A program made the translations under genes and the position numbers. A stretch of DNA of 54,187 nt from Polyangiaceae bacterium (lineage in GTDB: Bacteria; Myxococcota_A; Polyangia; Polyangiales; Polyangiaceae). The notes under the pieces are model-generated. The model was not told where the DNA came from. It searched no databases and worked only from the letters and a program-made list of their open reading frames with translations. The stretch covers positions 1-54,187 of the forward strand of contig JAKLKA010000037.1 in the NCBI GenBank assembly GCA_023150915.1, given 5' to 3'. Below are positions 661-19,865 of this stretch, piece after piece (position 1 is the first letter of the stretch; the number at the start of each line of letters is the position of its first letter).

Positions 661-1512
661 ATGACCCGTCGGGCCGCGACCGTTTGGCCGTGGGCGCTGC
701 TCGCGGGCGGCATCGCGGCGGCGTGCGCCGTCGGCGCCGCGCCTCGACCACGACTTTCCGCGCCGAGTCCGCCGAGCGCGCCGGATGCGGGTCCACCCGT
801 TGCGCGCAAGCCAAGGCCCGTACCGTCGCCGCCCACCGACGAGTATCCGTACGTCGGCATCTTCAATGGCTACGTCGATGCGTTCCGCCTGGAGGAGATC
901 GACGAGGCGTGGGCGAAGCCGACCGAGGCGACTCTGACGTCGCAGCTCACCGAGCTCGACCCCAACGTGGTGAGAGTGCGCCTGCTCGAGTGCCGCTGCG
1001 GCCTGTGCATGCTGGGCTTCATCATCGCCCCCGGTGGCGAGGGACCGAACCCGCAACCCGGAGTGGACTACCCGGCCGTGCGCTGGTCCGGATACGAGAA
1101 GCACATGCGCGGAATGCGCGCGGACCAGTGGGCCGAAGGCCTCGTCTTCCTCGGCCGCCACCCGAAGGACTCGCCGGCGGCGTCGCCCCGGGTCCGGTCG
1201 ACCGACAGCCCGTGGACCGATCCCGCCTGCGAGGGAGCAACACCCTTCCCACCCACGTGGGAGACAGATGGCAGACTCAACAACTGGACCGGAATCGGCA
1301 CCAACCGGATGCACGTTGGTCGCATGCGCATGCCGGCCCAGCGAGTGTGCTGGTGTCTGTGCGGGAAACTGCGCTCAGACGCGCGCCCGGCGTGCTTGTA
1401 CGAATCCGGCGGTCGTGTCTATTGTCCGCTGAGATCCTTCACCGATCGCGGCCTCCCCATCATCGACGGCGACTGGAGCTGCAAACGAGCCGAGCCGAGC
1501 GCCAGCCCGTAG
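661..1512 (+). CDS. Secreted or lipoprotein-like cysteine-containing protein of unknown function
   Basis: The 283-residue product starts with a short basic segment (MTRR) and a hydrophobic stretch ending IAAAC, a possible signal peptide or loose lipobox. A Pro/Ala-rich linker follows (about residues 25-60), then a globular part rich in Cys and Trp, with CRCGLC near 110 and CWCLC near 232. I do not recognise the family. The cysteine pairs suggest disulfides or metal binding outside the cytoplasm. An ATG at 628 is an alternative start. The frame is continuous with the truncated peptidase upstream, so annotation software would probably report one 488+ residue chimera. Confidence 0.55.
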   Translation: MTRRAATVWPWALLAGGIAAACAVGAAPRPRLSAPSPPSAPDAGPPVARKPRPVPSPPTDEYPYVGIFNGYVDAFRLEEIDEAWAKPTEATLTSQLTELDPNVVRVRLLECRCGLCMLGFIIAPGGEGPNPQPGVDYPAVRWSGYEKHMRGMRADQWAEGLVFLGRHPKDSPAASPRVRSTDSPWTDPACEGATPFPPTWETDGRLNNWTGIGTNRMHVGRMRMPAQRVCWCLCGKLRSDARPACLYESGGRVYCPLRSFTDRGLPIIDGDWSCKRAEPSASP

Positions 1513-1515
1513 GTC

Positions 1516-1574
1516 GCCCGGCTGAGCCCGCTGAGTCACCGCGTGCGCGCTGTCCACCACAGGCTCAACCGGGC
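1516..1574. terminator. Inverted repeat between convergent genes, possible bidirectional terminator
   Basis: GCCCGGCTGAGCC at 1516-1528 pairs with GGCTCAACCGGGC at 1562-1574, leaving a 33-nt loop. The one mismatch becomes a G-U pair in the minus-strand transcript. It lies in the 75-bp gap between the ends of a plus-strand and a minus-strand gene. There is no T-tract, so intrinsic termination is uncertain. Confidence 0.4.
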
Positions 1575-1587
1575 CTCGCGCCCCAGT

Positions 1588-3186: not shown

Positions 3187-3236
3187 GCTGCGGAATCTAG
3201 ACCTCGATGACCCGCAAAGCTTGCGCGAAATGGGGT

Positions 3237-3268
3237 GTAAGCCCCGCGTAAGCGCGGGGGTGCAGTAA
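3237..3268 (+). promoter_or_regulatory. Candidate SARP-type operator/promoter of the narK-narK-kinase-regulator operon
   Basis: GTAAGCCCCGCGTAAG at 3237-3252 contains two GTAAG heptamer cores exactly 11 bp apart. A further GTAAG occurs at 3265. The position equivalent to the -10 of the sister sites is CAGTAA at 3263-3268, 8 nt after the second heptamer, and the narK ATG follows 24 nt later behind AAGGAG. The same repeat is found at 10264 and 18041, upstream of the other two nitrate units. Confidence 0.6.
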
Positions 3269-3292
3269 GGGGGTGCCCCCAAGGAGACCCCA

Positions 3293-4675
3293 ATGAGCGC
3301 CGAAGCGAGCAAGGCCCAAACCGATGGCGACTGGCTGAAAGAGTGGACGCCAGAGGACGAGGGCTTCTGGGAGCGGACCGGAAGCAGGATCGCCTGGCGC
3401 ACGCTGATCCTGACGACGGCCGCGCTGACACTGTCGTTCGCGACCTGGTTCGTTGTGAGCGCGCTCGTCGTTCGACTCCCAGCCATCGGCTTCAAGTTCG
3501 ACGAGCGCCAGCTGTTCTGGCTCGCGGCCATGCCCGGCCTCGCGGGCGGCACGTTCCGCATCATTCATACCTTTCTGATCCCCATCTTCGGCACGCGAAA
3601 GGTGATCAGCGTCGCGACGTTCCTCAAGCTCATCCCTTGTGTAGGCCTGGGCATGGCAGTGGTCAGCCTCGACACCCCTTACTGGGTGTTCATGCTGTTC
3701 TGCTTCCTGGCGGGTTTCGGTGGAGGCGATTTCTCCTCGCACATGCCCAGCACGAGCATCTTCTTTCCCAAGCGCCTGCAAGGAACGGCGCTGGGCCTGC
3801 AAGCCGGCATCGGCAACTTCGGCGTCAGCCTCACGCAGTTCGTGACACCGTGGATCGTCGGGGTCGCCGCACTCAGCACCGTGACGGGCGCGTCACAGAC
3901 CCTCACCAAGGCGGGCAAGACCAGCAACATCTGGCTCCAGAACTCGGTCTACTGGTACGTGCCGCTGTTGGTGGTCGTCGGGGTCGCTTGCTGGCTCGGA
4001 CTGCGCAGCGTGCCCATGAAGGCATCATTTCGCGAGCAGCTCGACATCTTCAAGAACAAGCACACCTGGTTTTGCACCATCACTTACATCATGACCTTCG
4101 GGTCGTTCTCGGGCTTCGCGGCAGCGTTTCCGATGCTGATCAAGAGCCTGTATGGCGGGTTTCCCGATGCGCCCGACCCGCTGAAGTACGCCTTCTACGG
4201 CCCGCTGATCGGCTCGGCAATGCGCGTCGTGTTCGGGTTCGTCGCCGACAAGGTTGGCGGGGCCATCCTCACCCAGGTTTCTGGCGTCGGTCAGATCGTC
4301 TGTTGTGTCGCGCTCTGGTACACGGGCGCGCTCGCCCCCACTTCGCTCGCCTCGTTCAGCACGTTCGTCTGGTTGATGCTCGGCATCTTCTTTTTCTCGG
4401 GGATCGGTAACGCCTCGACCTTTCGGCAGTTCCCCCTGATCTTTGCGCACAACCCACGCCAAGGCGCCCAGGTGCTGGGCTGGACCGGCGCGGTCGCTGC
4501 CTACGGTCCGTTTCTGTTCGCGATGGCCATCGGGGAAGTGATCTCGTCGACGCAACGGGCGACAGGGTTCAAGTCGGCAGCGCCGTTCTTCCTCGGCGCG
4601 GTGGCCTTCTTCGTGATCGCGGTGGGCATCAACTGGTGGTTTTACACTCGCAAAGGCTGCGAATGCCCGTCGTAA
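3293..4675 (+). CDS. narK: NarK nitrate/nitrite MFS transporter (E. coli NarK-like)
   Basis: This 460-residue, 12-helix inner-membrane carrier of the nitrate/nitrite porter family probably exchanges nitrate for nitrite or imports nitrate for NarG. The N-terminal tail (WTPEDEGFWERTGSRIAWR) closely parallels E. coli NarK. The two substrate arginines are visible: R89 in GGTFRI, and an Arg in GSAMRVVFGF of helix 8. Nitrate signatures appear as GIGNFG and GIGNAS. AAGGAG lies 6 nt before the ATG. It is the first gene of a tight four-gene run with a second NarK and the two-component system, 27 bp before the next gene, and its promoter carries the direct-repeat motif at 3237. Confidence 0.9.
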   Translation: MSAEASKAQTDGDWLKEWTPEDEGFWERTGSRIAWRTLILTTAALTLSFATWFVVSALVVRLPAIGFKFDERQLFWLAAMPGLAGGTFRIIHTFLIPIFGTRKVISVATFLKLIPCVGLGMAVVSLDTPYWVFMLFCFLAGFGGGDFSSHMPSTSIFFPKRLQGTALGLQAGIGNFGVSLTQFVTPWIVGVAALSTVTGASQTLTKAGKTSNIWLQNSVYWYVPLLVVVGVACWLGLRSVPMKASFREQLDIFKNKHTWFCTITYIMTFGSFSGFAAAFPMLIKSLYGGFPDAPDPLKYAFYGPLIGSAMRVVFGFVADKVGGAILTQVSGVGQIVCCVALWYTGALAPTSLASFSTFVWLMLGIFFFSGIGNASTFRQFPLIFAHNPRQGAQVLGWTGAVAAYGPFLFAMAIGEVISSTQRATGFKSAAPFFLGAVAFFVIAVGINWWFYTRKGCECPS

Positions 4676-4702
4676 TGGCCGCCTTCCGACCTCGCTTCTA
4701 GC

Positions 4703-6190
4703 ATGACCGAACGTCGACAGGCCCACACCGCTCTCGCCATGAGCACGCTGGCGTTCACCGTCTGCTTCGCCGCGTGGATGCTGAACGGCGTGCTGGTCAC
4801 CTTCCTGGCGGACAACGGCGTGTTCCGTTGGACCGGTAGCGAGATGGGCACGCTGATCGGCATCCCGGTCCTCACCGGCTCGGTGCTGCGCTTGCCCATC
4901 GGCGTGCTCACCGACCGCTACGGCGGGCGCCCCGTGTTCACCGGCCTCTTGCTCTTGGCCGCGGTTCCGATGTTCTTGCTGGGCTCGGTCGGCGGGTTCT
5001 GGGGGTTTCTGCTGTGCAGCCTGGGTTTCGGCTCGATCGGTTCGGGCTTCGCCGTGGGCATCGCCTTCACCGCCGTCTGGTTCCCGAAGCACCAGCAGGG
5101 CACGGCCATGGGGATCTTCGGCGCCGGCAACGCAGGGGCCGCGGTGACCACTCTGGGCGCGCCGTCACTCTTGCGCTGGCTGACCGGGGGCGGCACCCAG
5201 CTCGAGGCGTGGCGCACGCTGCCCAAGCTGTACGCCGCGGTGCTCGTGCTGATGGCGGTGTTGTTCTACGTCACCACCGTGAACCGCATGCCCGAGGGCA
5301 GCGTCAGCAAGCGCCTGGGCGACATGCTCTCGCCGCTGAAGAGCACCCGGGTCTGGCGCTTCGGCCTCTACTACTTCCTGGTGTTCGGCGGGTTCGTGGC
5401 CCTCGCGCAGTGGCTGGTGCCCTACTACACCAACGTCTACTCGATGTCGCTGGTCACCGCTGGCCTGATGACCTCGATCTTCTCGGGGCCGTCGGGTGTG
5501 ATCCGCGCCCTGGGCGGCTGGCTCAGCGATCGCTTCGGCGCCCGAGCCGTCACCTTCTGGGTGCTGGTGATCACCTCGGCGTGCTGCGCGCTGCTGTTCT
5601 TCCCGAAGATGGACGTCGAGTCGCCGGGTCGGGGGGTCATGGCCACGCGCGCCGGGACCGTCACTGCCGTCGGCACCGATTCGGTACGGGTCGGTGAAAC
5701 GGACTTCGTGCTGAAGGTCATGCCGCAGTCCGCCAAGCGCGTCTTCAGCGACAGCGAGCTGGTGGTGATGCCGGTCATCCACTCGTGGCACGAGCCGGTG
5801 GTCAAGGTGGGCGACCCGGTGATCAAGCGCCAGCTGCTCGCCCGCGGGGTCACGCACATCTACTTCCAGGCCAACGTCTGGATCTTCACCGTGCTGGTGT
5901 TCGTGATCGGCATCGCGATGGGCATCGGCAAGGCGTCGGTGTATCGCTACATTGCCGACTTCTTCCCCAAGAATGTGGGCGTGGTGGGCGGCACGGTGGG
6001 CGTGATCGGCGGGCTCGGGGGCTTCTTCTGCCCGGTGCTGTTCGGCTACCTGCTGGACACCATCGGGCTCTGGACCACCACCTGGATGGCACTCTTCGCC
6101 ACCGGCGTGGTGTGCATCTTGTGGCTGGCCGTCGCGGTCCGCGCGCGCGGAGCGAAGGGCAGCGACGCCCAGGACCCCGCCGGGAACTGA
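4703..6190 (+). CDS. narK: NarK-family nitrate/nitrite transporter with a soluble insertion
   Basis: This 495-residue MFS protein has the nitrate porter signatures GAGNAG and GIGKAS and two helix arginines, R63 (GSVLRLPIGVLTDR) and R268 (SGVIRALGGWLSDR). It resembles NarK1/NasA-type H+-linked carriers more than E. coli NarK, so the operon probably encodes complementary import and exchange systems. Between helices, at about residues 303-390 (bases 5609-5870), lies a soluble stretch with paired beta segments (AGTVTAVGTDSVRVG and EPVVKVGDPVIKRQLLARG) that looks like a small barrel or half biotinyl/lipoyl-like domain. This is not part of a standard MFS fold. No clear ribosome-binding site precedes the ATG, so coupling to the upstream narK is likely. 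Confidence 0.85.
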   Translation: MTERRQAHTALAMSTLAFTVCFAAWMLNGVLVTFLADNGVFRWTGSEMGTLIGIPVLTGSVLRLPIGVLTDRYGGRPVFTGLLLLAAVPMFLLGSVGGFWGFLLCSLGFGSIGSGFAVGIAFTAVWFPKHQQGTAMGIFGAGNAGAAVTTLGAPSLLRWLTGGGTQLEAWRTLPKLYAAVLVLMAVLFYVTTVNRMPEGSVSKRLGDMLSPLKSTRVWRFGLYYFLVFGGFVALAQWLVPYYTNVYSMSLVTAGLMTSIFSGPSGVIRALGGWLSDRFGARAVTFWVLVITSACCALLFFPKMDVESPGRGVMATRAGTVTAVGTDSVRVGETDFVLKVMPQSAKRVFSDSELVVMPVIHSWHEPVVKVGDPVIKRQLLARGVTHIYFQANVWIFTVLVFVIGIAMGIGKASVYRYIADFFPKNVGVVGGTVGVIGGLGGFFCPVLFGYLLDTIGLWTTTWMALFATGVVCILWLAVAVRARGAKGSDAQDPAGN

Positions 6191-6234
6191 GCGCGGCTTG
6201 CCCGGGCGCCGGCCGGGTGGCACCCTCGCGGCAA

Positions 6235-8004
6235 ATGCCCGCCCGCGCGCCCGTGGCCACGGCCGGAAGGACACTGCGCGACGCGATCTCTCGCTGGGGG
6301 GTCGCGCCGCTGTCGGGCTCCGAGCCGAGCAATGCCGTCTTCCGATGGCTGGTGGGTCTGCGCTGGATCGCCGTCCTGGGCGTGGCGCTGGTGTTGGGGG
6401 TCACCGGGCCGCTCCTCGGTCTGCTTCCGGCCGGGTCCGTGCCCGCGCTCTGGACGGTGCTGGCCGGCCTGGCCCTCTACAACGCCGCCCTCTCGCTGCT
6501 CGGGCAGAGCTCGGCCCTGCCGTGGCTCACGCATTTCGCGGGTCAGATCGTGGCGGACTGCCTGGCGCTGGCGGCGTTCGTCCACTTCTCGGGCGGCGTC
6601 GAGAACCCCTTTCTATCGCTCTTCGTGCTGCACATCATCAACGCCAACATCGTGCTTCGCCCCCGCGCCGCGTCGGCCTTGTCGCTGGTCGCGGTGGCCC
6701 TGGCCTTGGTGGTGGTGGTCGGCGAGGGCGCCGGGTGGCTGCCTCACCACTGCCTGCGCGAGAACGAGGCCGCCTGCGTCGCGCGCAGCCTGAGCCCTTG
6801 GTCGCTGGGCGTGCTCGGGGGGCTCGGCCTGATGCTGGGTTCGAGCTCGTACATCGCGCGCTATCTGACGGCGCGGCTCCACGACAGCGAGCAGCGCTTG
6901 GCGAGCACGGTGGACGACCTCTCGCTGGAGAAAGAGCGGCTTGCCGAGACGCGCGCCACCGTCGAGCTCGAACGCTCACGCCTGCAGTCGATCATCGACT
7001 GCATGGGCGACGCGGTCACGTTCTCGGATCCCGAGGGCCGCCTGCTCTTGAGCAACGATCGAGCGAAAGAGCTGAGGCGCGGCGGGGACGACCCTTTCGG
7101 TCCCGAGTCGCTGACGGCGGTCTTCGACTCGGTGGCCCGGGGGCGTGACGCAGTGACGCAGCCGGCGTTCGAGCGGGGTGGCCGCAGCTATGAAGCAACC
7201 TGCGCCGTGGTGCGCGACCCGCACGAGGCCCCGCTGGGCCTGGTGACCGTGACCCGCGACATCACCGATCGCCTGGCGCTGGAGCGCCACTTGATGCACG
7301 ACGAGCGCATGGCGGTGGTGGGCAAGATCGCCGCGGCCGTCGCTCACGAGATCAACAACCCGATCGGCGTGGTCTCGCTCTACGCGCAGCACGCCTTGGC
7401 CAAGCTTCCGCCCGGAAGCCCCATCGAGAAGCACCTCGAGACCATCCGCCGCAACGCCGAGAGTTGCCGCAAGATCACCGGCGACCTCTTGCAGCTGGCG
7501 CGCCCCCGCACCCCCGAGCACGCGCTGGTCGATCTGCGCTTGCTCTGCAAAGACGTCGCTCAATCGGTCGAGCCGGTGGCCGCCAAATACGGCGTGGTGG
7601 TCGCGGACGAGAGCCGCGCCAACACAGCGCCCCTCTGGGCCGAGGGCGACGCGGGGCAACTGCGGCAGGCGGTGCTCAATCTGGCGCTGAACGCCATCGA
7701 GGCCTCGCAAGAGGGGGACCGCGTGTCGATCCGGGCCTACGAAACCCAAGACCGCGACGCGACCGCGCGCGTGGTCGAGGTCAGCGACACCGGGAGCGGG
7801 ATCGACCCGGACCAGCTGGCGCAGATATTCCAGCCCTTCTTCACGACCAAACCCACGGGAACCGGCCTGGGGCTGGCGGTCGCGGACAACATCGTGAAGG
7901 CCCACAACGGCCGAATGACCGTCGAGAGCGCGGACAACCGCGGTACGACCTTCCGCATCCTCTTGCCGAGCGCCGCGGCCCGCGCCATGGAATTGCCAGC
8001 GTGA
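6235..8004 (+). CDS. Membrane sensor histidine kinase with RegB/PrrB-like redox-sensing domain and PAS domain
   Basis: This is a 589-residue kinase. Residues about 35-210 form six hydrophobic helices and include GGVENPF at 120-126, matching the GGXXNPF quinone-binding motif of RegB/PrrB sensors. A coiled linker (212-250) leads to a PAS domain (about 250-345), the phosphoacceptor box AAAVAHEINNP with H371, and an ATPase domain with N-box LNLALNAIEA, G1 DTGSGID and G2 TGTGLGLAVADNI. It probably reads the redox state of the quinone pool and phosphorylates the next gene product. The RegB redox cysteine region is not apparent. It overlaps the regulator gene by 4 bp (GTGA), so translation is coupled. 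Confidence 0.88.
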   Translation: MPARAPVATAGRTLRDAISRWGVAPLSGSEPSNAVFRWLVGLRWIAVLGVALVLGVTGPLLGLLPAGSVPALWTVLAGLALYNAALSLLGQSSALPWLTHFAGQIVADCLALAAFVHFSGGVENPFLSLFVLHIINANIVLRPRAASALSLVAVALALVVVVGEGAGWLPHHCLRENEAACVARSLSPWSLGVLGGLGLMLGSSSYIARYLTARLHDSEQRLASTVDDLSLEKERLAETRATVELERSRLQSIIDCMGDAVTFSDPEGRLLLSNDRAKELRRGGDDPFGPESLTAVFDSVARGRDAVTQPAFERGGRSYEATCAVVRDPHEAPLGLVTVTRDITDRLALERHLMHDERMAVVGKIAAAVAHEINNPIGVVSLYAQHALAKLPPGSPIEKHLETIRRNAESCRKITGDLLQLARPRTPEHALVDLRLLCKDVAQSVEPVAAKYGVVVADESRANTAPLWAEGDAGQLRQAVLNLALNAIEASQEGDRVSIRAYETQDRDATARVVEVSDTGSGIDPDQLAQIFQPFFTTKPTGTGLGLAVADNIVKAHNGRMTVESADNRGTTFRILLPSAAARAMELPA

Positions 8005-10175
8005 ACGAGACCCGGGTACTGGTCGTCGACGACAACCGCGACATGGCAGACGGCATCGCCATGCTGCTGGGCGAGCTCCCGCTGAGCGTCGAGGTCGCGT
8101 ATTCCGCCGGCGAGGCGCTGACCGAGCTCGACCACCAGGAATACGCCCTGGTGCTGAGCGACATCCGCATGCCCTACATGAACGGCGTCGAGCTCTTGGC
8201 CGAGATCCGCCAGCGCTGGCCACGCACGCGCGTCGTGCTGATCACCGCCTTCGGCAGCATCGACTCGGCGGTCGAGGCGATGAAAGAGGGTGCCAGCGAT
8301 TACCTGACCAAGCCGTTCGACAACGCCGCGCTGATCGAGGTCGTCGAGAGGAACCTGGCAGCCGCCCGCAGCGCCGACGAGTTCGACGTGCCGGCGGTGG
8401 TGGCCGCGGTCGCCGCGCGGCTGTCGCCGGATGACTTGTTCGGCAGCCTGACCTCTGCGCTCGAGACGCTGCGCAGCTCGGCGGGCGCCGACGACTGTGA
8501 GCTCTTCCTCACCGAGCCCGACGGCAAAGATGTGCTGCTGTCGGTGTGGGTGGGGCTCGACGGCGAAGCGCTGATCGAGCGTACGCGCTTCGAGCCGGGC
8601 TCGGGGTATCCGGGCATCGTCACCGCCACCGGGTCTTCGTTCTTCAAGCAGGGCGACCTGGCCGACGACCCGCGCTACCTGCGGCAGCGGGTGCTCGACA
8701 AGGGCATCAAGTCGTACGCTTGCGCGCCGCTCAGCGAACCGCGGGGGTCCTTCGGGTCGATCCACTTGCTCTCGCGCCGCGCCGATTTCCCGGCGCACCG
8801 CGCGGTCGACCTGCTCGAGCAAGCGGCCGTGCCCATCGCCAGCGCGGTGCGCGCGGGCCTCTCGGCGTTGCGCCAAGCCGTGGACGAAGCGTGCGCGCCG
8901 CACGAGGCGGGCTCGCCGGCGCAGTTGCGCGAGCTGCTCGAGTGTATCCGCAAGCGCGCCGACGCCAACTACGGCAGCATCGCGCTGGTCGACCCCGAGA
9001 GCGGCCTGCCCTCGCGAGTGGTGTCCAGCGGCCCGGCCACGCTGCTGTGCGCCCACGCCGAAGGGGGAGCCTGGGCCGAGTGCCCGTCGGTGCTCGAAGG
9101 CCACGGGTTTGCGGCCGATCGTGGGCGGCGCGCGTGGCCGGTCCCGTGCCGGCGTGGCGTGCCGCGCCGGGTGGTCAGCCCGTGCTGCCTGCCGCTGATG
9201 GAAAACGGCCGCTTCCACGGGCTGGTCACCCTCGATCTGGGCCGCAAGGGCGAGGCCAATGCCAGCGCCGGCCTGGTGCCGCTGCTCGTGATGTCCCAGC
9301 AGGCGGCCATCCACCTGGCCAGCGCCCATCCCGGGCTGAAGCTGGACCCGAAGCGCGACGACGTCGCGATCGCGAGCGCACCCGTGGCCGAGCTCGAGCT
9401 GCGCTGCCTGGGTCCGTTCGAGGTGGTTCAGCGGGGGGCGCTCATCCCCGCCGAGCAGTTCCCGCGCAGCAAGGCCCTGAGCCTGCTCAAGCTGTTGGCG
9501 CTCAAGGCCGGCACGCCACTCAGCAAAGACTATCTGATCGATCAGCTGTGGCCCGATGCCGACCCGACCAGCGGTGCGAACCGGCTGCACGGCGTGGTGC
9601 ACGCGCTGCGGTCGGTGATCGAGCCGCACCGCGCCGAACGCAGCTGGCTTTACGTGCGGAATCGCGGCGAGCTCTACTACCTGGATCTCGAGGCCCCGCT
9701 CGAGATCGACCTCTTGCGCTACCGCGCGCTCTCGAACCGGGGCCTGCGCGCCATCCACGACCCGAGCCCCAAGGCCATCGACGCGCTCGAGCGCGCCGTG
9801 GCCCTCTATCGCGGAGAGCTGTTCGGCGACGAGCCCTACGCCGAGTGGTGCGAGATAGAGCGTCGTGAGCTGGCAGAGCAGCAGGTGACCGCCCTCGAGC
9901 GCTTGGCCAGCGTGCACGCCGGTCAGGGCAACACCGAGCGCGCGCTCGAGCTGATGCGGCGCGCCGCGCGGATGGCCCCCTACCGCGAAGACCTGCTGAT
10001 CGCGCTCCTGGATCTGCTGGTGCACATGGGTCGCCCCAGCGAAGCGCGCGCACAATACGACGAGTTCCGCAAGATCCTGGAGCGCGAGCTCGGGGCGGCG
10101 CCGTCGCGGGAGCTCGAAGAGTTCCGTCGGCGGGCCTTCCGCCTGTCGAGCCGCCCACCGCCCGCGCCCCGCTGA
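8001..10175 (+). CDS. Response regulator: receiver-GAF-GAF-SARP (winged helix + BTAD) transcription factor
   Basis: This 724-residue protein starts at GTG 8001, overlapping the kinase stop. Residues 1-118 are a receiver with D10/D11, phosphoacceptor D54, T82 and K104. Residues about 145-290 and 305-450 are two GAF-like domains; the second has cysteines at 350, 361, 383, 395 and 396. From about 465 an OmpR-type winged helix begins (RCLGPFEVV, then PRSKALSLLKLLAL), followed by a bacterial transcriptional activation domain to the end (DLLRYRALSNRG, ALELMRRAARMAPYREDL). That C-terminal pair is the SARP architecture, best known from actinobacterial antibiotic regulators that bind direct repeats with 11-bp spacing. 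Its position among the nitrate genes and the 11-bp GTAAG repeats make it their likely activator. Confidence 0.85.
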   Translation: MNETRVLVVDDNRDMADGIAMLLGELPLSVEVAYSAGEALTELDHQEYALVLSDIRMPYMNGVELLAEIRQRWPRTRVVLITAFGSIDSAVEAMKEGASDYLTKPFDNAALIEVVERNLAAARSADEFDVPAVVAAVAARLSPDDLFGSLTSALETLRSSAGADDCELFLTEPDGKDVLLSVWVGLDGEALIERTRFEPGSGYPGIVTATGSSFFKQGDLADDPRYLRQRVLDKGIKSYACAPLSEPRGSFGSIHLLSRRADFPAHRAVDLLEQAAVPIASAVRAGLSALRQAVDEACAPHEAGSPAQLRELLECIRKRADANYGSIALVDPESGLPSRVVSSGPATLLCAHAEGGAWAECPSVLEGHGFAADRGRRAWPVPCRRGVPRRVVSPCCLPLMENGRFHGLVTLDLGRKGEANASAGLVPLLVMSQQAAIHLASAHPGLKLDPKRDDVAIASAPVAELELRCLGPFEVVQRGALIPAEQFPRSKALSLLKLLALKAGTPLSKDYLIDQLWPDADPTSGANRLHGVVHALRSVIEPHRAERSWLYVRNRGELYYLDLEAPLEIDLLRYRALSNRGLRAIHDPSPKAIDALERAVALYRGELFGDEPYAEWCEIERRELAEQQVTALERLASVHAGQGNTERALELMRRAARMAPYREDLLIALLDLLVHMGRPSEARAQYDEFRKILERELGAAPSRELEEFRRRAFRLSSRPPPAPR

Positions 10176-10263
10176 GCGGCTGACATCCGTCATTCGACCC
10201 GCAAACCCGCCCCATCCTTCGTCCTCGACGCCCCGCCGACGGGCCGGATCGGCCGGCTGGCAC

Positions 10264-10295
10264 GTAAGCCCCGTGTAAGAGGGGGGCGGTATGCC
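10264..10295 (+). promoter_or_regulatory. Candidate SARP-type operator/promoter of the narCGHJI operon
   Basis: GTAAGCCCCGTGTAAG at 10264-10279 repeats the motif found before narK with one base changed between the cores. A -10-like TATGCC occupies 10290-10295, 8 nt after the second heptamer. Transcription would then begin near 10302, which rules out the in-frame ATG at 10291 as the narC start. Confidence 0.62.
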
Positions 10296-10347
10296 CCCAC
10301 GAGCCGCGGCGAAACCTGCAGGGTCGCCGCCCTACGGAGGCCTGACG

Positions 10348-11190
10348 ATGAATCTGAAAACGCTCTGGCGCACGCTCGTGGCGGGCGCCGCTCTGGCCCT
10401 GGTCTTCTCGCTCGACGTGGGCTCGGCCCAGGCCGCCGGCGGCGACCAGAAGTTCAACAGCGTGTGCGCCGGCTGTCACAGCATCGGCGGTGGCAAGCGC
10501 GTCGGTCCCGACCTGAAGGGCGTGACCGATCGCCGCAGCGAGGCTTGGCTGCTCAAGTTCATCAAGTCGTCGCAGACGATGATCAACTCCGGCGATCCCG
10601 ACGCTGTGAAGGTGTTCAACGAATACAACAAGACGCCCATGCCCGACATGGCGCAGTTTTCGGAAGCCGACATCAAGGAGATCCTCGAGTACATCAAGGG
10701 CGGCGGCGGCGGCGGCGCCGCGCCGGTCATGGCGCCGGCCACCCCGGCCGAGATCAAGCTCGGGGGCGAGCTCTTCCAGGGCATCGTTCGTCTGAAGAAC
10801 GGCGGCGCGGCCTGTAACTCGTGCCACCACGTCACGAACGACGCCGTGATCGGCGGCGGCGTGCTGGCCAAGGACCTGACCGAGGTCTTCACCCGCGTCG
10901 GCGGCACGGGCGTGGGCGCGATCCTCGGCAAGCCCCCGTTCCCGGTGATGGAAGCCGCCTACAAAGACGCGCCGATCACCCCGGAAGAGAGCCGCGCGTT
11001 GGTCGGCTTCCTGCAAGACGTGGACAAGAAGCGCGCGATGCAGACCCCGAAGGACTACGGCAATCAGCTGGTCCTGGGCGGCACCGGCATGTTCATCGTG
11101 CTGATGGGCCTCTACTCGTTCGCCTGGCGCCGCCGCAAGCCCGGCCCGGTCAACCAAGCCATTTTCGACCGCCAGGTGAAGTCCCAGTAG
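10348..11190 (+). CDS. narC: Membrane-anchored diheme cytochrome c of the nitrate reductase operon (NarC-like)
   Basis: This 280-residue protein begins with a Sec signal peptide (to about residue 30, GSAQAA). It has two c-type heme sites, CAGCH at 40-44 and CNSCH at 156-160, and a C-terminal membrane helix at about 240-262 (FIVLMGLYSFAW) followed by basic residues. The two cytochrome domains are joined by a Gly-rich hinge near residue 126. PMPDM and FPVM offer candidate axial methionines. As the first gene before narG it matches Thermus narC, a diheme cytochrome of the Nar complex that sits with NarI at the membrane. An electron role between quinol or a bc1 complex and NarI is inferred. ACGGAGG precedes the ATG at 10348. 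Confidence 0.85.
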   Translation: MNLKTLWRTLVAGAALALVFSLDVGSAQAAGGDQKFNSVCAGCHSIGGGKRVGPDLKGVTDRRSEAWLLKFIKSSQTMINSGDPDAVKVFNEYNKTPMPDMAQFSEADIKEILEYIKGGGGGGAAPVMAPATPAEIKLGGELFQGIVRLKNGGAACNSCHHVTNDAVIGGGVLAKDLTEVFTRVGGTGVGAILGKPPFPVMEAAYKDAPITPEESRALVGFLQDVDKKRAMQTPKDYGNQLVLGGTGMFIVLMGLYSFAWRRRKPGPVNQAIFDRQVKSQ

Positions 11191-11246
11191 GCGCTGCCAC
11201 TTGACGCTCACAGAACCCCAGTCACTCGAGACGGAGATTTGAAGCC

Positions 11247-14200
11247 ATGAGCTGGATCCAGGACATCATCTCGCCCCAGACGCGCAAGTGGGAAGAGTTC
11301 TACCGCAACCGCTTTCAGCACGATCGCATCGTCCGCAGCACGCACGGCGTGAACTGCACCGGGGGCTGCTCTTGGCAGATCCACGTCAAGGACGGCATCG
11401 TGGTGTGGGAGACGCAGCAGCTCGATTACCCGCTGCTCGACGACCAGCTGCCGCCGTACGAGCCCCGCGGCTGCCAGCGCGGCATTTCGTACTCGTGGTA
11501 CCTCTACAGCCCGCTGCGCATCAAGTACCCGCTGATCCGCGGCGCGCTGCTCGACGCCTTCGAGCGCGAGAAGCGCGCGGCCGACGGCGACCCGCTGAAG
11601 GCATGGGAGAACCTGCAGAAGGACCAGAAGAAGCGCGAGACCTATCAGAAGGCCCGCGGCAAGGGCGGCTATCGCCGCGCCACCTGGGACACCGTGCTCG
11701 AGCTGATGGCGGCGGCCAACATTCACACCGCCAAGAAGTACGGCCCGGACCGGGTGTTCGGCTTCTCGCCGATCCCGGCGATGTCGATGCTCAGCTACGC
11801 GGCCGGCGGGCGCTTCTTGCAGCTCTTCGGCGGCGCGAACCTCAGCTTCTACGACTGGTACTGCGACCTTCCGACCGCGTTCCCCGAGATCTGGGGCGAG
11901 CAGACGGACGTGTGCGAGAGCGCCGATTGGTACAACGCCAAGATGATCGCGGACATGGGCGCGTGCCTCAACATGACGCGCACGCCCGACTGCCACTTCT
12001 TCGCCGAGTCACGCCACAACGGCACCAAGGCGGTGGTCTTCTCGCCCGACTTCAGCCAGGTGTGCAAGTACGCCGACCAGTGGGTGCCGCTCCACGCGGG
12101 CAGCGACGGCGCGTTCTGGATGGCCGTGTCGCACGTCATCCTGAAAGAGTTCCACCACGACACCCAGACCCCGTACTTCATCGAGTACTGCAAGCAGTAC
12201 ACCGACAGCCCGTTCCTGGTGAAGCTCGAGAAGTCCGGCGATCACTACGTCCCCGGTCGCCTGCTGCGCGCCAACGAGGTCGCCAAGTACAAGGACATCG
12301 AGAACGGCGACTGGCAGTTCCTGAACATCGACGAGAAGTCGAACGAGCTGGTGGTTCCCAAGGGCACCATGGGCTACCGCTGGGCGAAGAGCGCCACCGG
12401 CAAGTGGAACATGAAGTTCGAGAACGGCGTCGACGACAAGCCGTACGACCCGATCCTCACCCTCCTGGGTAACCGCGACGAGACGCTGCCCACCGAGTTC
12501 GTGGAATACGGCCTCGACAAGAAGGCCGTCCGCAACGTCCCGGTGCGCTACATCGAGACCACCGACGGCAAGGTCGCGGTCACCACGGTCTACGACCTGA
12601 TCATGGCCCAGTACGGCGTGAGCCGCGGCCTGACCGGCGACTACCCGAAGGACTACACCGACAAGGACGCCGCCTACACGCCCGCCTGGCAAGAGATCTT
12701 CACCGGCGTCGACTCGAAGACGGTGTTGCAGTTCGCCCGCGAGTGGGCGCACACCGCCGCGACGACCAAGGGCAAGTGCATGATCATCATCGGCGCGGGT
12801 ATCAACCATTGGTACCACGCCAACCTGATGTATCGCTCCGGCGCCATGGCGCTGATGCTGTCGGGCTGCGTGGGCAGGAACGGCGGCGGGCTCAACCACT
12901 ACGTCGGGCAAGAGAAGCTCGCTCCGGTCGACTCGTGGGCGTGCATCGCCTTCGCCAAGGACCACATCGCCGCCAGCCGCCTGCAGCAGGCGCCGCTCTG
13001 GCACTACATCAACACCTGCCAGTACCGCTACGACGGGCACTACGCCAAGTACAACGCGGTGCCGAAGAACGAGTGGACCAAGCTGCACACGGCAGACACC
13101 ATCTTCCGTGCGGTGCGCATGGGCTGGATGCCGTTCTACCCGCAGTTCGCCCAGAACCCGCTGGAGCTGGCCAAGGAAGCCCAGGAGAAGGGCGGTGCGA
13201 AGACCGACGACGACATCAAGCAGTACGTGCTCGAGAAGCTGAAGAGCAAAGAGCTCGCGTACTCGATCAGCGACCCCGACGCCCCCGAAAACCATCCGCG
13301 CGTCTGGTACATCTGGCGTGGCAACGCCATCACCGGCAGCATGAAGGGCCACGAATACGCCTTCAAGCACTACCTCGGAACGCACCACAACTCGATCGCC
13401 AAGGACTCGAGCGATCACCCGGAAGAGGTGAAGTGGCACGAGGTCGCCCCGGTCGGAAAGATGGACCTGATCGTCGATCTGAACTTCCGCATGGACTCGT
13501 CGGCGCTCTACTCGGACATCGTGCTGCCCGCGGCGTCTTGGTACGAGAAGGCGGACATGAACAGCACCGACCTGCACTCGTTCATCCACCCGCTGTCGCA
13601 GGCGGTGGCGCCGGTGTGGGAGTCGAAGTCGGACTGGGAGATCTTCAAGGCGCTGGCCAAGGCCACGGCGGACCTGGCCAAGAAGAAGATGCCCGGCAAG
13701 CTCAAAGACGTGGTCGCGACGCCGCTGTCCCACGACAGCGCCGACGAGATCACGCAGCCCACGGTCAAGGACTGGTACCTGGCCGAGTGCGAAGCGGTGC
13801 CCGGCAAGACGATGCACAAGATCAGCGTCGTCGAGCGCGACTACACCCGGCTTTACGAGGACTTCATCAGCTTCGGTGAGCTGGTGAAGAAGAGCGGGCT
13901 CGGGGGCCACGGCAACCACTACATGTGCGACGACGCCTACGACGAGATGGTCAGCTCGAACCATTTCCCGAAGGAGGTCGTCGACGGCAAGGTGCTGCCC
14001 TCGCTGCGCGAGGACACGATGGCCGCCAACGTGCTGCTCCACATGTCGACGCTGACGAACGGCAAGCTGAACGTCCGCGCCTACGAGAACATGGAGAAGA
14101 AGACGGGCCTGAAGCTCGCCGACCTCGGTGAGGGCAGCAAGGACGTGCACCTCACCTACGAGGATCTGCAGGCGCAGCCGCGGCGCTACAACACCTCGCC

Positions 14201-14870
14201 GCTGTGGAGCGGCCTGATGAACAACGGCCGCGCCTACGCTCCGTACACCTACAACTACGACAAGCTCGTGCCCTGGCGCACGCTGACCGGCCGGCAGCAC
14301 TTCTACCTCGATCAGGAGCTCTACATCGCCTACGGCGAGCACCTGCCGACGTACAAGCCCTCGCCCAAGCCCGAGGCCTACGGCGACCTCAAAGAGACGA
14401 TGAAGACCGGCGAGTCCATCGCCCTCAACTGTCTCACCCCGCACGGCAAGTGGCACATCCACTCGACCTACATGGAGAACCACCGCATGCTCACCCTCTC
14501 GCGCGGCTGCGAGCCGTGCTGGATGAGCGAGGCAGACGCCGAGGCGCTGGGCATCCAGGACAACGACTGGGTCGAGGTCTACAACGACCACGGCGTGTAC
14601 TGCACCCGCGCGAGCGTCAGCTCACGCATCCCCAAGGGCGTGTGCATCGTGTACCACGTGCCCGAGCGCACGGTGGGCATCCCCAAGTCGCAGGTGCGTG
14701 GCAACAAGCGCGCCGGCGGCCACAACAGCTTCACCCGCGTCCACCTCAAGCCCAACTACCTGAACGGCGGCTACGGCCAGTTCTCTTACCACTTCAACTA
14801 CTGGGGCCCGATCGCGCCGAACCGCGACACCCACGTCTTCGTCAAGAAGATGACGACGGTAATCTTCTGA
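11247..14870 (+). CDS. narG: Respiratory nitrate reductase alpha subunit NarG
   Basis: NarG (1207 residues) is the molybdenum bis-MGD catalytic subunit reducing nitrate to nitrite. The FS0 [4Fe-4S] ligands H33, C37, C41 and C76 ([15 protein letters not shown]) are offset by exactly 16 from E. coli H49/C53/C57/C92. The Mo-ligand Asp lies in YDWYCDLP (D203). [21 protein letters not shown] and [11 protein letters not shown] are typical. No N-terminal twin-arginine signal is present, so the active site should be cytoplasmic. The protein ends soon after VKKMTTVIF, slightly shorter than E. coli NarG (about 1247). A 56-bp gap with ACGGAG separates it from narC, and narH follows after 22 bp. Confidence 0.97.
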
Positions 14871-14892
14871 GAGACCACGGGAGAAAACGAAA

Positions 14893-16442
<1,550 letters not shown>

Positions 16443-16443
<1 letters not shown>

Positions 16444-17135
16444 TGGCGAAGAACCTAGAGCTGTATGCCCGCCTCGCGGGCGCCTTCGAAGCTCCGGGCG
16501 CCGATTTCGTCGCAGAGGTTCGCCGCATCGCGGTGGACCTCCGCGCCGATCACCCGTCGGCGGCCGACTCGGTCGAGCGCTTCGCCTCCCTCCTCCCCGA
16601 GGAAGCGGACGCGCGTGCCGAGCTGTTCGTGCGCACCTTCGACATCCAGGCCATCACCACGCTGGACGTCGGGTACGTGCTCTTCGGCGAGGACTACAAG
16701 CGCGGCGCGCTCTTGGCCGGGCTCAGCAACGAGCACACCAGGGCCAAGAACGACTGCGGGGCCGAGCTGGCCGATCACCTGCCCAACGTGCTGCGTCTGT
16801 TGCCCAAGCTGGGCGACGGCGAGGTTCGGGAAGAGCTGGTGAGCGTCATTCTCGGGCCGACGGTCCGCGAGATGCTGCGCGAGTTCGAGCCCGCGCGCAT
16901 CGCGAAGAAGGAAGAGATCTACCGGAAGCACCACAAGACCATCATCGAGCACGCAGAGAACATGGAGCTCCGGACGGCCTACAAGCACGTCATCTCGGCG
17001 CTCTACGAAATGCTGCGCGCCGACTTCAACCTGAAGGTCAGCCTGCCGCTCGAGCAGGCCGACACGTTCGAAAAGTCCATCGACACCGAGATGGGCATGG
17101 AATCCTGCGGGTCGTCCTGCGGGCCCAGCGTGTGA
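16443..17135 (+). CDS. narJ: Nitrate reductase chaperone NarJ
   Basis: NarJ (230 residues) is a TorD/NarJ-family helical chaperone that holds apo-NarG for cofactor insertion and membrane assembly. The segment ARAELFVRTFD (about 59-69) and the LADHLPNVLRLLPKL helix are the most conserved NarJ parts. The start at 16443 overlaps the narH stop. The C-terminus ends in CGSSCGPSV, a short two-cysteine tail not typical of E. coli NarJ, which might bind metal or just be disordered. narI begins 10 bp downstream. Confidence 0.9.
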
Positions 17136-17145
17136 GAGGTACGAC

Positions 17146-17874
17146 ATGACTCTGCCGAACCTGTTCTTCTTCGTAGGCCTACCCTACATCGCCATCGTCA
17201 TCTTCCTGGTGGGCACCATCCAGCGCTACCGGAACACGGGCTTCAAGGTCTCCTCGCTGTCGTCACAGTTCCTCGAGGGCAAGAAGCTGTTCTGGGCGTC
17301 GGTGCCTTTCCACTGGGGCATCTTGGTGGTGTTCTTCGGTCATCTGCTCGCCTTCTTGATCCCGAGCGGTATCCTGGCGTGGAACGCCCAGCCGGTACGC
17401 CTGCTCATCCTGCAGGTCACTGCCTGGGCCTTCGGCCTTTCGGTGCTGGTGGGTCTGCTCGGCCTCATCGCACGCCGGCTGACCAACCCGCGCGTGAAGA
17501 TGGTCACCACCAAGATGGACGTCTTCATCGAGCTGCAGATTCTGTTGCAGACGGTGCTGGGGCTCTACATCGGCTACGCCCACCGCTGGGGTGCTTCCTG
17601 GTTTGCAGCCGACCTTTCACCCTACCTCTGGTCTCTGTTCAAGCTCGACCCGCAGATCACGGCCGTCAGCGCCATGCCGCTGGTGATTCAGCTGCACATC
17701 ATCAACGCCTTCTTGATCTTCGCGATCTTCCCCTTCACCCGCCTGGTGCACATTCTGGTGGCTCCGCTGCACTACCTGAGCCGCCCCTACCAGCGCGTGA
17801 TGTGGAACTGGGACCGCACCGCGATCCGCGACCCCCGCACCCCCTGGAGCGAGGCGCGCCCGCGCAACAACTGA
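17146..17874 (+). CDS. narI: Respiratory nitrate reductase gamma subunit NarI (cytochrome b)
   Basis: NarI (242 residues) is the five-helix diheme cytochrome b that oxidises quinol and anchors NarGH. The four heme histidines are present: H56 and H66 (FHWGILVVFFGHL), identical in number to E. coli, and H183 and H201 (QLHIINAF, RLVHILV), four less than E. coli H187/H205. GAGAGG precedes the ATG. It is the last gene of the narCGHJI unit, and a strong stem-loop follows 19 bp after its stop. Confidence 0.96.
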   Translation: MTLPNLFFFVGLPYIAIVIFLVGTIQRYRNTGFKVSSLSSQFLEGKKLFWASVPFHWGILVVFFGHLLAFLIPSGILAWNAQPVRLLILQVTAWAFGLSVLVGLLGLIARRLTNPRVKMVTTKMDVFIELQILLQTVLGLYIGYAHRWGASWFAADLSPYLWSLFKLDPQITAVSAMPLVIQLHIINAFLIFAIFPFTRLVHILVAPLHYLSRPYQRVMWNWDRTAIRDPRTPWSEARPRNN

Positions 17875-17893
17875 GCGTTCCTCGGTCGGTGTG

Positions 17894-17934
17894 ACGGCCA
17901 CGTGGGCTTCGGCTCACGTGGCCGTTCTGCTTTT
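17894..17934 (+). terminator. Rho-independent terminator of the nar operon
   Basis: A 14-bp stem (17894-17907 with 17912-17925, one G-U pair) closes on a TTCG tetraloop and is followed by TCTGCTTTT. This is the clearest intrinsic terminator in the window. Confidence 0.85.
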
Positions 17935-18040
17935 GTGGCGCAGCGCCCCGGGCGAGCCAAAACGCGATTTCCTTGCACTTGGGCGCCTAAAGCCGCGCCC
18001 AGAGGCGCACCAATTTCGCGTTTAATTACGAATACTTAAC

Positions 18041-18072
18041 GTAAGCCGCGCGTAAGCCTGGGGCGCTACACC
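18041..18072 (+). promoter_or_regulatory. Candidate SARP-type operator/promoter of the MFS-UspA gene
   Basis: GTAAGCCGCGCGTAAG at 18041-18056 is the third copy of the motif, again with an 11-bp core spacing. TACACC at 18067-18072 takes the -10 position, 8 nt after the second heptamer, and the ATG follows 26 nt later. The preceding stretch (about 18011-18040) is unusually AT-rich for this window and includes TTAATTACGAATACTTAA. Confidence 0.6.
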
Positions 18073-18098: not shown

Positions 18099-19808
18099 AT
18101 GCGAATCAAAGAGTTCCTGAAGTCCGGCCACTGGCCAACGCTTCTGGCAGCGTTTCTCTACTTCGACTTCTGTTTTGCGATCTGGGTGCTGAACGGCGCC
18201 ATGGCGCCCTTCATCAGCGAAGAGTTCAAGCTCTCGCCGGCCCAGAAGGGCTTCATGATCTCGGTGCCGATCATGGCTGGCGCGCTGATGCGCTTCCCGC
18301 TGGGCGTGCTCGCGCAATACATCGGGCGCAAGCGCGCGGCGATGGTCGAGATGGGCTTGATCATCGTCGCCATGTGCTACGGCTACTTCGTCGTCTCGGC
18401 CTACAGCCATGTGCTCAACATGGGCGTGCTGCTGGGGATCGCCGGCGCCAGCTTCGGCGTGGCGCTCTCGCTCGGCTCCGGGTGGTTTCCGGCGAAGTAC
18501 AAGGGGCTGGCGATGGGCATCGCCGGCGCGGGCAACAGCGGCACCGTGCTGGCCGTGCTGTTCGCGCCACCCCTGGCTCAAGCCTACGGCTGGAAGACGG
18601 TCTACGGCTTTGGCGCGCTGTTCATGCTCATCCCGATGCTGGTGATGCTCGTGGCCGCGAAGGAGCCGCCCGACATCGAGAAGCAGAGCTTGAAGGACCA
18701 CGTCAAATGCTTGTGGGAAAAGGACGGCTGGATCTTCAACCTGATCTACATCGTCACCTTCGGGGGCTTCATCGGCCTCGCCAACTTCTTGCCGACCTTC
18801 TTCCACGATCAGTTCGGCGTGACCAAGGTGCAGGCGGGTCAGCTGACCATGCTGGCGGCCCTGATGGGCAGCGGCATCCGGGTGGTGGGTGGTGCGATTT
18901 CGGATCGCTGGGGCGGCATCAACACGTTGACCGGCGTCTTCGTGGTGGTGATCGGCGGCATGCTGGTCACCGGCGCGCAGTCCACCGCGACCGGCGCGAC
19001 CATTCTGTTCATGTTCTGCTTCGCGGCGCTGGGCGCGGGCAACGGCGCGCTCTTCCAGCTGGTGCCGCTGCGCTGGCCGGCCACCACGGCGGTCGCCGGC
19101 AGCATGATCGGCGAGGTCGGCGCGCTCGGCGGCGCGTTCATCCCCAACGCCATGGGTCTGTCGAAGCAGTACACGGGGTCGTTCATGTACGGCTTCGTGG
19201 CCTTCTCGGCGCTCGCCTCGGTCGCCTTCGTGGTGCTGCGCGTGTCCCAGCGCCGCTGGACGCGCACCTGGGTCGACAAGGGTGGGCGCGCCCGAGCCAA
19301 GCCGCTGGACCAAGAGCTGGCGGTCCCGGCGCTGGTGCGAAGGCCGGCGCACGCCGGGCTGAACGGCGCGGGCTACACCACCGTGGTCTATCCGGTGGGC
19401 GCCGGCGAGCTGGCCGACAAGGCCGCCACCGTGGCCGCGGGCATCACCAAGATGTCGGGCGCGACGCTGGTGCTGGTCTACGTGGAAGATCAGTGGGGGC
19501 AAGTCGGAACGGTGGGTGCCAGCTCGGACGAGTGGGAAGAAATCCGGAAGAACTGGATGAAAGAGGGGGAGGCGCTGCTGGCGCGCGAGGCCCAGCGCCT
19601 GAGAGATCTGGGCGTCGAGAACGTCGAGACCGAGCTCCGACAAGGCCGGGTGGCCGAAGAGGTCGTGGCGGTCGCCGACGAGCGGAAGGCCGAGCTGATC
19701 GTGCTGGCCAGCCATCAGGCCTCGCCACTCGGACGGCTGCTGATGGGCAGCCGGACGTTCGAGATCTTCCAGCGGGCCGCTTGCCCGATCTTGCGCGTGG
19801 TCCGCTGA
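18099..19808 (+). CDS. Nitrate/nitrite-type MFS transporter fused to a C-terminal UspA domain
   Basis: This 569-residue protein has 12 predicted helices (about 1-390). Nitrate porter features include GAGNSG, GAGNGA and arginines R65 (GALMRFPLGV) and R261 (GSGIRVVGGAISDR). After a basic linker a universal stress protein domain covers about 425-569 (TTVVYPVGAG, LVLVYVEDQW, AELIVLASH, LMGSRTFEIFQRAACPILRVV). The usual Gly-X2-Gly half of the UspA nucleotide motif is replaced by SHQAS, while the following GS is kept, so ATP binding is uncertain. The fusion suggests that uptake is gated by nucleotide or energy state. It has its own copy of the nitrate direct repeat, which ties it to the nar regulon. 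Confidence 0.87.
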   Translation: MRIKEFLKSGHWPTLLAAFLYFDFCFAIWVLNGAMAPFISEEFKLSPAQKGFMISVPIMAGALMRFPLGVLAQYIGRKRAAMVEMGLIIVAMCYGYFVVSAYSHVLNMGVLLGIAGASFGVALSLGSGWFPAKYKGLAMGIAGAGNSGTVLAVLFAPPLAQAYGWKTVYGFGALFMLIPMLVMLVAAKEPPDIEKQSLKDHVKCLWEKDGWIFNLIYIVTFGGFIGLANFLPTFFHDQFGVTKVQAGQLTMLAALMGSGIRVVGGAISDRWGGINTLTGVFVVVIGGMLVTGAQSTATGATILFMFCFAALGAGNGALFQLVPLRWPATTAVAGSMIGEVGALGGAFIPNAMGLSKQYTGSFMYGFVAFSALASVAFVVLRVSQRRWTRTWVDKGGRARAKPLDQELAVPALVRRPAHAGLNGAGYTTVVYPVGAGELADKAATVAAGITKMSGATLVLVYVEDQWGQVGTVGASSDEWEEIRKNWMKEGEALLAREAQRLRDLGVENVETELRQGRVAEEVVAVADERKAELIVLASHQASPLGRLLMGSRTFEIFQRAACPILRVVR

Positions 19809-19865
19809 GGCCGATTCCGGCGTCAGAAATTGGGCCAAAGCGCCCGGGCCGTGCCACCGGAGGAC

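Follow-up and report, generated by a model that had tools for sequence, protein, structure and literature searches.

A direct repeat as the probable operator of a DnrS-type, SARP-like regulator of nitrate respiration genes in a Polyangiaceae bacterium

The nar cluster and its direct repeats

The stretch analyzed here, called the window, comprises 54,187 nucleotides (nt) of contig JAKLKA010000037.1 from a Polyangiaceae bacterium (assembly GCA_023150915.1; 8,005,077 bases, or 8.0 Mb, scanned in 295 contigs). The window carries a nitrate respiration (nar) cluster arranged in three units (Table 1). The first encodes the transporters NarK1 and NarK2, a histidine kinase, and a regulator; the second encodes the cytochrome NarC followed by NarGHJI; the third starts with a gene for a NarK-type transporter fused to a UspA domain. 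Each unit is preceded by the direct repeat GTAAG-N6-GTAAG. We propose that this repeat is very probably the operator of the cluster-encoded regulator, a relative of the Thermus protein DnrS, and that from it the regulator activates all three nar units through a −10 box located 10 nt downstream.

A preliminary description of this DNA had placed one 16-mer ahead of each unit, at 3237, 10264, and 18041, and all three were located there. Specifically, GTAAGCCSCGYGTAAG matches the window three times but never occurs in 100 dinucleotide shuffles, and allowing two mismatches in GTAAGCCNNNNGTAAG adds a single window match, at 48040, against a chance expectation of 1.1. The description had noticed no copy elsewhere in the window and had proposed a whole-genome scan, in which many copies at unrelated genes would speak against its claim. 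That scan returned GTAAG-N6-GTAAG exactly three times, always in the nar cluster and never at an unrelated gene, compared with one occurrence of the reversed control pattern. The extended pattern GTAAGN6GTAAGN10TA, with one mismatch allowed, likewise finds just the three cluster sites, and its control finds none. All three genomic copies fall inside 14.8 kb of 8.0 Mb, which has a probability of about 3e-6 under uniform placement.

The repeat has a period of 11 bp, and the hexamers CAGTAA, TATGCC, and TACACC begin 8 nt past the second heptamer, as previously described, which is 10 nt past the second GTAAG. The repeated unit had been taken to be a 7-mer; alignment of the sites gives instead a 5-base core, GTAAG, often with T before it and C or T after it. 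The repeat sits where a −35 box would be, and the promoters have no good −35 box. In the operators described for SARP activators, direct repeats recur every 11 bp and the 3′ one lies 8 bp from the −10 box (PMC10936776). The spacing found here agrees with that rule, so the likeness to SARP activators seen in the preliminary description stands; the exact value of 8 bp depends on counting the heptamer as GTAAGNN, and not every site has a recognizable −10 box. Spacing was tabulated for 23 sites, reduced to 18 non-redundant sites by dropping five near copies (three from G002, a genome of the same genus, and two from Deinococcus). TA lies at offset 10 past the repeat in 11 of these 18 sites, and in zero or one at any other offset from 0 to 21. 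Two of the 11 cases (loci L067 and L070) are not blind because those sites were noticed partly through their −10 spacing; genomes G779 and G523 are fresh tests for the repeat.

Repeat and regulator across genomes

The distribution of the repeat was examined in 377 genomes of the phylum, with a threshold of 240 bits for DnrS-type proteins and of E 1e-150 or better for NarG. NarG is encoded in 23 genomes and a DnrS-type protein in 8, all 8 within the 23 (p = 5e-11). The threshold leaves out G380, with a shorter GAF-BTAD protein (175 bits, one GAF domain) and no NarG; counting it gives p = 4.5e-10. The exact GTAAG repeat is present in the narC promoter of all eight DnrS-carrying genomes: seven showed it when the first 1,600 bases of every locus were scanned on the sense strand, and a separate scan showed it in the eighth, G156. 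The 7.3-Mb genome G420, with a regulator of 54% identity, contains one copy only, again in the narC promoter. Thus, the search in relatives that had been suggested as a check yields the repeat in nine of nine Myxococcota-type DnrS loci. Among the 15 NarG genomes without DnrS, 4 (G177, G134, G288, and G272) were left out for too little upstream DNA. The repeat occurs, with one mismatch allowed, in none of the six in which narC and 300 bp or more of upstream DNA can be seen, and in none of the five without a full narC beside narG (G068, G009, G398, G386, and G333). Fisher's test gives 3e-4 for 8/8 versus 0/6, 1.3e-5 for 8/8 versus 0/11, and 6e-4 for 7/7 versus 0/6, the last with the near copy G002 dropped.

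A blind search ranked the same element first. Specifically, when all pairs of 5-mers at spacings of 0 to 20 were counted in 11 DnrS-linked narC promoters, GTAAG-N6-GTAAG, with its reverse complement, led with 8 of the 11. In 48 of 60 dinucleotide shuffles, the best common pair was shared by 3 promoters, and in the other 12 by 4. The three promoters without the GTAAG repeat are two proteobacterial ones and one from Thermomicrobiales. Across the 951,206 bases of 66 control loci, which carry BTAD or receiver proteins of other kinds, the exact repeat is absent. Away from narC, genome G034 has a second site, on a different contig, before a relative of the NarK-UspA protein (57% identical). In the same-genus genome G001 (L052:7555-8770), a site with one mismatch, and with TAGCGT correctly spaced behind it, precedes a gene for a SLAC1-type anion channel, which stands where the window has narK and is followed by kinase and regulator.

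Proteobacterial DnrS loci carry a variant of the repeat. Exact GGAAG-N6-GGAAG is found in all four proteobacterial DnrS narC promoters, and in L067 and L070 it is followed, 10 nt further on, by TATGAT or TATGGT. As a fresh test, 399 genomes of one proteobacterial order yielded two more with a relative (G779 and G523), and both have exact GGAAG-N6-GGAAG between regulator and narC. The exact GGAAG repeat is found upstream of narG in none of the 23 phylum loci, and the GTAAG repeat, at up to one mismatch, in none of the four proteobacterial loci. The Burkholderiaceae locus L082 ends inside the regulator, with the promoter out of view, and the Chloroflexota genome G868 also ends there. In the putative recognition helix, the nine proteins of the GTAAG group read NRLH or RSLH, giving the residue pair RL or SL, and four proteins of the GGAAG group read GQFH, KQFH, RQFH, or RQLH, giving QF or QL. 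The residues of this putative helix change together with the half-site.

On four Deinococcus plasmids, GTTAG-N6-GTAAG heads a nitrate-type molybdoenzyme operon and is followed 10 nt later by GACACT or CACACT. These hexamers lie so near the ATG that the transcript may be leaderless. At these loci (L057-L060, approximately 1000-9600), the DnrS-type gene follows an operon that is unlike NarGHI and comprises MFS, molybdopterin oxidoreductase, 4Fe-4S, Rieske, DUF6755, and NarK/MFS genes, and in L057 and L059 a GTTA-type repeat, seen by eye, faces a divergent NarK/MFS gene.

Several observations weigh against assigning the repeat to the regulator. Not one of the three window −10 boxes closely resembles TATAAT, and 3 of the 23 sites (two in G034 and one in G156) have nothing −10-like at that spacing. 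In L067, the regulator gene is 8 kb away from narC. Two Thermus DnrS loci, searched at up to two mismatches and by eye, lack the repeat between narC and dnrS, where the window has it; the Thermus DnrS helix differs from that of the GTAAG group, and the partner DnrT may do more in Thermus. The repeats of three Chloroflexota nar loci are imperfect (GTAAG/GAAAG, GGAAG/GGAAT, and GTGAG/GTGAC), and those with fitting spacing (G1091 and G950) were recognized post hoc and are not counted. A second G950 protein, without nar, is accompanied by GTAAG/GTAAT plus TAGCCT. Loci L050 and L072, which carry GAF- or PAS-BTAD genes without nar, have no convincing site. The bare repeat is also not enriched: 12 genomes contain 21 copies, versus 26 of the reversed control. 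In 97 relatives, GTAAGN6GTAAGN10TA has nine matches in seven genomes, six of them at DnrS loci and three in genomes without detected DnrS (G014, G015, and G056); the reversed control has three. Because the bare repeat is not enriched genome-wide and its TA-extended form also occurs in genomes without DnrS, placement alone, not frequency, marks the repeat as special.

Regarding placement, 14 of the 21 copies lie at nar or NarK-UspA genes. The other seven (two in G034, one in G156, and four in G421) have no nar gene nearby and are taken as background; one background copy, L155, is near a weak receiver-type match. A site in L050 (G380), with one mismatch, opposite orientation, and no nar genes nearby, is taken as chance.

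The regulator, its mechanism, and competing explanations

The regulator consists of a receiver, a GAF domain, a second GAF-like region, an OmpR-type winged helix (PF00486, Trans_reg_C), and a BTAD domain (PF03704). It is the sole near-full-length BTAD match in the genome; two others above the cut-off cover just 83 of 146 profile positions each. A model of residues 455-724 (predicted local distance difference test score, pLDDT, 91) has as its top structural matches AfsR in the RNA polymerase-promoter complexes 8k60 and 8hvr (best E 3e-11; template modeling score 0.70-0.76), with EmbR second. AfsR and EmbR supply the only six chains with E ≤ 0.001. The part between the GAF domain and the winged helix is predicted to be a second GAF domain (model of residues 125-450, pLDDT 88). 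Cysteines 350, 361, and 383 of this domain are conserved in 90% or more of 14 aligned proteins, those of Thermus and Deinococcus among them. They may form a redox or metal site in the DnrS family; that they hold a metal or an iron-sulfur cluster is a guess. Most aligned DnrS-type proteins also keep a fourth cysteine in this domain, before LPL. Finally, the DnrS-type proteins of L067, L070, L071, and L056 (proteobacterial, Thermomicrobiales, and Thermus) have in common an additional stretch at the N-terminus, in which cysteines form a pattern about a GKD/GRD.FGR..C motif.

Among plasmid-encoded proteins, the best-covered matches to the regulator are GAF-BTAD proteins of Deinococcus and Thermus (best 40 of 2869). 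Thermus DnrS is described as a GAF and BTAD protein, encoded beside narC, that activates nar and is needed for nar and for its own promoter; its GAF region is suspected to be an oxygen sensor, by a mechanism the authors leave open (PMC5748679, PMC6282519, PMC7694296). According to the review among these sources (PMC7694296), DnrS DNA binding could not be assayed. Judging by titles and abstract openings, none of the papers listed on DnrS, BTAD, SARP, and nitrate (20 of 122 and 10 of 33 in two of the listings) names a DnrS operator. The preliminary description had regarded a SARP-controlled nitrate regulon as undescribed, a claim that was too strong because DnrS is already published. What seems new is the DnrS operator; a SARP-type nar activator as such is already known.

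Comparison with known systems places the regulator among them. With DnrS of Thermus thermophilus (dnrST-narCGHJIKT), it shares homology over GAF and BTAD and a gene adjoining narC. Unlike the window regulator, Thermus DnrS has neither a receiver nor a kinase partner. In addition, Thermus dnrS is divergent from narC-narG-narH-narJ-narI and is followed by a Crp-type gene, whereas the window regulator gene leads into narC on the same strand. Looked for in this position alone, a Crp-type dnrT partner is not present: the next gene is narC. With SARP activators such as AfsR, the regulator shares an OmpR-type winged helix directly followed by a BTA domain, in a predicted fold like that of AfsR. The DNA-binding domains of SARPs, however, are N-terminal and those of the window regulator occupy residues 455-724, behind receiver and GAF; SARPs target antibiotic synthesis, whereas the window regulator is predicted to serve nitrate respiration through the half-site GTAAG. 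Receiver-winged helix-BTAD response regulators, which we take to be the COG3947 SAPR family, likewise join a receiver to a SARP-type output. The window regulator differs from them in having two GAF domains in between, and its receiver-less relatives serve the same nar genes.

As for the input, the kinase motif GGVENPF matches GGxxNPF, the heptapeptide described for quinone sensing by RegB (PMC8191878). The heptapeptide is present in the kinases of the window, G002, and G420. It was not found in the G001 kinase, which is shorter at the N-terminus, and the G034 kinase copy is incomplete. RegB/PrrB redox kinases partner with RegA; the window kinase is partnered with a SARP-type regulator. A true RegB was considered and rejected: the kinase reaches 98.5 of 350 bits against the NCBIfam ActS/PrrB/RegB model, through the kinase core alone, and thus lies below the cut-off. 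Outside the window, G001, G002, G034, and G420, the DnrS-type proteins examined lack a receiver, which suggests that kinase coupling came later in this family.

Judged by sequence and predicted fold, the protein is a DnrS-type regulator with SARP output, a newly recognized probable operator, and an added receiver and kinase. In the most probable mechanism, two neighboring protomers would each occupy one GTAAG half-site, a helical turn from one another. At these promoters, which lack a good −35 box, the bound regulator would then bring RNA polymerase to the −10 box 10 nt downstream, in the manner of AfsR at the afsS promoter. In so doing, it would switch on narK1-narK2-kinase-regulator, and hence itself in positive autoregulation, along with narCGHJI and the NarK-UspA gene. 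Input would reach the receiver as phosphate from the neighboring kinase, the bearer of a RegB-type quinone motif; an oxygen or redox signal may come in addition through the second GAF domain with its cysteines. The sites and their rarity, the domain composition, the predicted fold, the co-occurrence, the spacing, and the co-variation were established here, whereas activation, phosphorylation, and sensing are proposed. The SARP operator that the preliminary description had ascribed to this regulator, together with a nitrate regulon, is supported by fold, spacing, presence and absence, blind search, and co-variation; the binding itself we infer.

Another regulator of the OmpR family, encoded elsewhere, might bind the repeats, with the DnrS-type regulator acting otherwise. 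PhoB-, PhoP-, and GlnR-type proteins also use 11-bp direct repeats, and the winged helix of the window regulator is of the same class (Trans_reg_C). We consider such an arrangement improbable given that the repeat tracks the DnrS-type gene across genomes, that the half-site changes where the DnrS helix changes, and that the sites in the bacterium's own genome are confined to the cluster. Still less credible is the idea that the repeats play no regulatory part, being ancestral promoter sequence carried along when the nar genes were duplicated or transferred. The three window sites do share CC/CG flanks, and nar clusters are described as horizontally mobile in Thermus (PMC7694296). The window and G002, however, agree at every one of the 30 half-site bases in the three operators, whereas the gaps before narK1 and the NarK-UspA gene are 69% and 65% identical, respectively. 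Similarly, N6 and the flanking bases differ from genome to genome, but the half-sites and the distance of 10 nt are retained, and NarG clusters without DnrS, up to 78% identical, have no repeat. That the regulator instead binds as a repressor, blocking RNA polymerase aerobically from a repeat that overlaps the position of a would-be −35 box, is every bit as implausible, since the promoters lack a good −35 box of their own, the spacing is that of SARP activators (PMC10936776), and Thermus DnrS is reported to be an activator.

Regarding the genes themselves, the kinase and regulator genes overlap by four bases. The narC start was set by eye behind GGAGG rather than at the ATG within TATGCC. Just 5′ of operator 3, at 18000-18040, approximately 35 bases are nearly identical in G002, the rest of the gap being largely diverged; this stretch is perhaps the site of a second regulator. 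Directly behind the NarK-UspA gene, possibly in the same operon, lies a YkuD-type L,D-transpeptidase gene (19830-21197), and further on lies a gene for an FHA-sigma-54 activator protein (24641-26032).

Table 1. Features of the nar cluster in the window (positions in nt; regulator domains in residues; scores against protein family models in bits)
Feature	Position	Strand	Remarks
Operator 1, GTAAG-N6-GTAAG	3237..3252	+	before narK1-narK2-kinase-regulator; half-sites kept in G002; autoregulation predicted
Putative −10 box CAGTAA, weak	3263..3268	+	10 nt past operator 1
narK1, nitrate/nitrite transporter	3293..4675	+	TIGR00886 281 bits, below cut-off 312
narK2, nitrate/nitrite transporter	4703..6190	+	TIGR00886 187 bits, below cut-off; MFS_1
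Histidine kinase, membrane part with GGVENPF, start uncertain	6235..8004	+	HisKA, HATPase_c
DnrS-type regulator	8001..10175	+	receiver 6-115, GAF 142-283, second GAF-like domain, winged helix 490-548, BTAD 569-710
Operator 2, before narC	10264..10279	+	orthologous site in 8 more genomes
Putative −10 box TATGCC	10290..10295	+	10 nt past operator 2
narC, nitrate reductase cytochrome c, start by eye	10348..11190	+	Cytochrom_C; gene order as Thermus narCGHJI
narG	11247..14870	+	TIGR01580 1430 bits, above cut-off
narH	14893..16443	+	TIGR01660 652 bits, above cut-off
narJ, chaperone, start by eye	16446..17135	+	TIGR00684 28 bits, below cut-off; between narH and narI
narI	17146..17874	+	TIGR00351 134 bits, above cut-off
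Operator 3, before NarK-UspA fusion gene	18041..18056	+	same gene with repeat in G002; also in G034, on another contig
Putative −10 box TACACC	18067..18072	+	10 nt past operator 3
NarK-type MFS transporter fused to UspA domain	18099..19808	+	MFS_1, Usp; TIGR00886 242 bits, below cut-off

PAS-BTAD regulators and wider meaning

A second class of regulators emerged post hoc, inside loci first used as controls. Twelve of the 66 control loci carry a BTAD protein with an RLKV helix, and the three that were searched are PAS-winged helix-BTAD proteins. The pattern GTNAC-N6-GTNAC is present in 8 of the 10 RLKV loci with DNA behind the regulator in view (L073, L076, L078, L079, L080, L081, L083, and L090), within 110-370 bp after the regulator match and with TA approximately 9-11 nt further on. 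As for the other two, L085 has GTCAC/GTCAT with TA at 10, and L093 has no GTNAC repeat; L077 and L091 end too soon behind the regulator to judge. Across the 66 loci, the pattern occurs at 27 places, versus 9 and 7 for two other palindromic patterns (54 rows on both strands, versus 18 and 14). The genes that follow include narC-narG in L080 and L090 (NarG identity 79-80%), and a 44% identical NarG further on in L083; L073 and L079 have di-heme peroxidase genes next, and L078 has one for a cytochrome bd-type protein. This class fits one predicted rule: constant spacing with a regulator-specific half-site.

We speculate, tentatively and at somewhat under even chances, that SARP-type regulators are widespread, little-noticed respiration switches outside actinomycetes. 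They would share one architecture, with half-sites 11 bp apart and a −10 box approximately 10 nt on, and each lineage would have its own half-site (GTAAG for Myxococcota-type DnrS, GGAAG for proteobacterial DnrS, GTTAG/GTAAG for Deinococcus, and GTNAC for PAS-BTAD), set by two or three helix residues. The Polyangiaceae branch would represent a two-component capture, in which a quinone-sensing kinase phosphorylates a SARP with a cysteine-ligated GAF domain, so that the quinone pool and oxygen gate nitrate respiration via one protein. If the proposed operator is right, SARP-type activation would extend from antibiotic clusters to anaerobic respiration in several phyla, nitrate regulons could be located in a simple way in uncultured bacteria, and the DnrS-type switch would have a two-component form. 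The proposed operator, its lineage variant, and the matching helix changes make directly testable how DnrS finds its promoters. Finally, GTAAC-N6-GTAAC lies shortly behind BTAD genes at L094:3330 and L100:6987, in metagenome-assembled genomes of Nitrospirae and Deltaproteobacteria.

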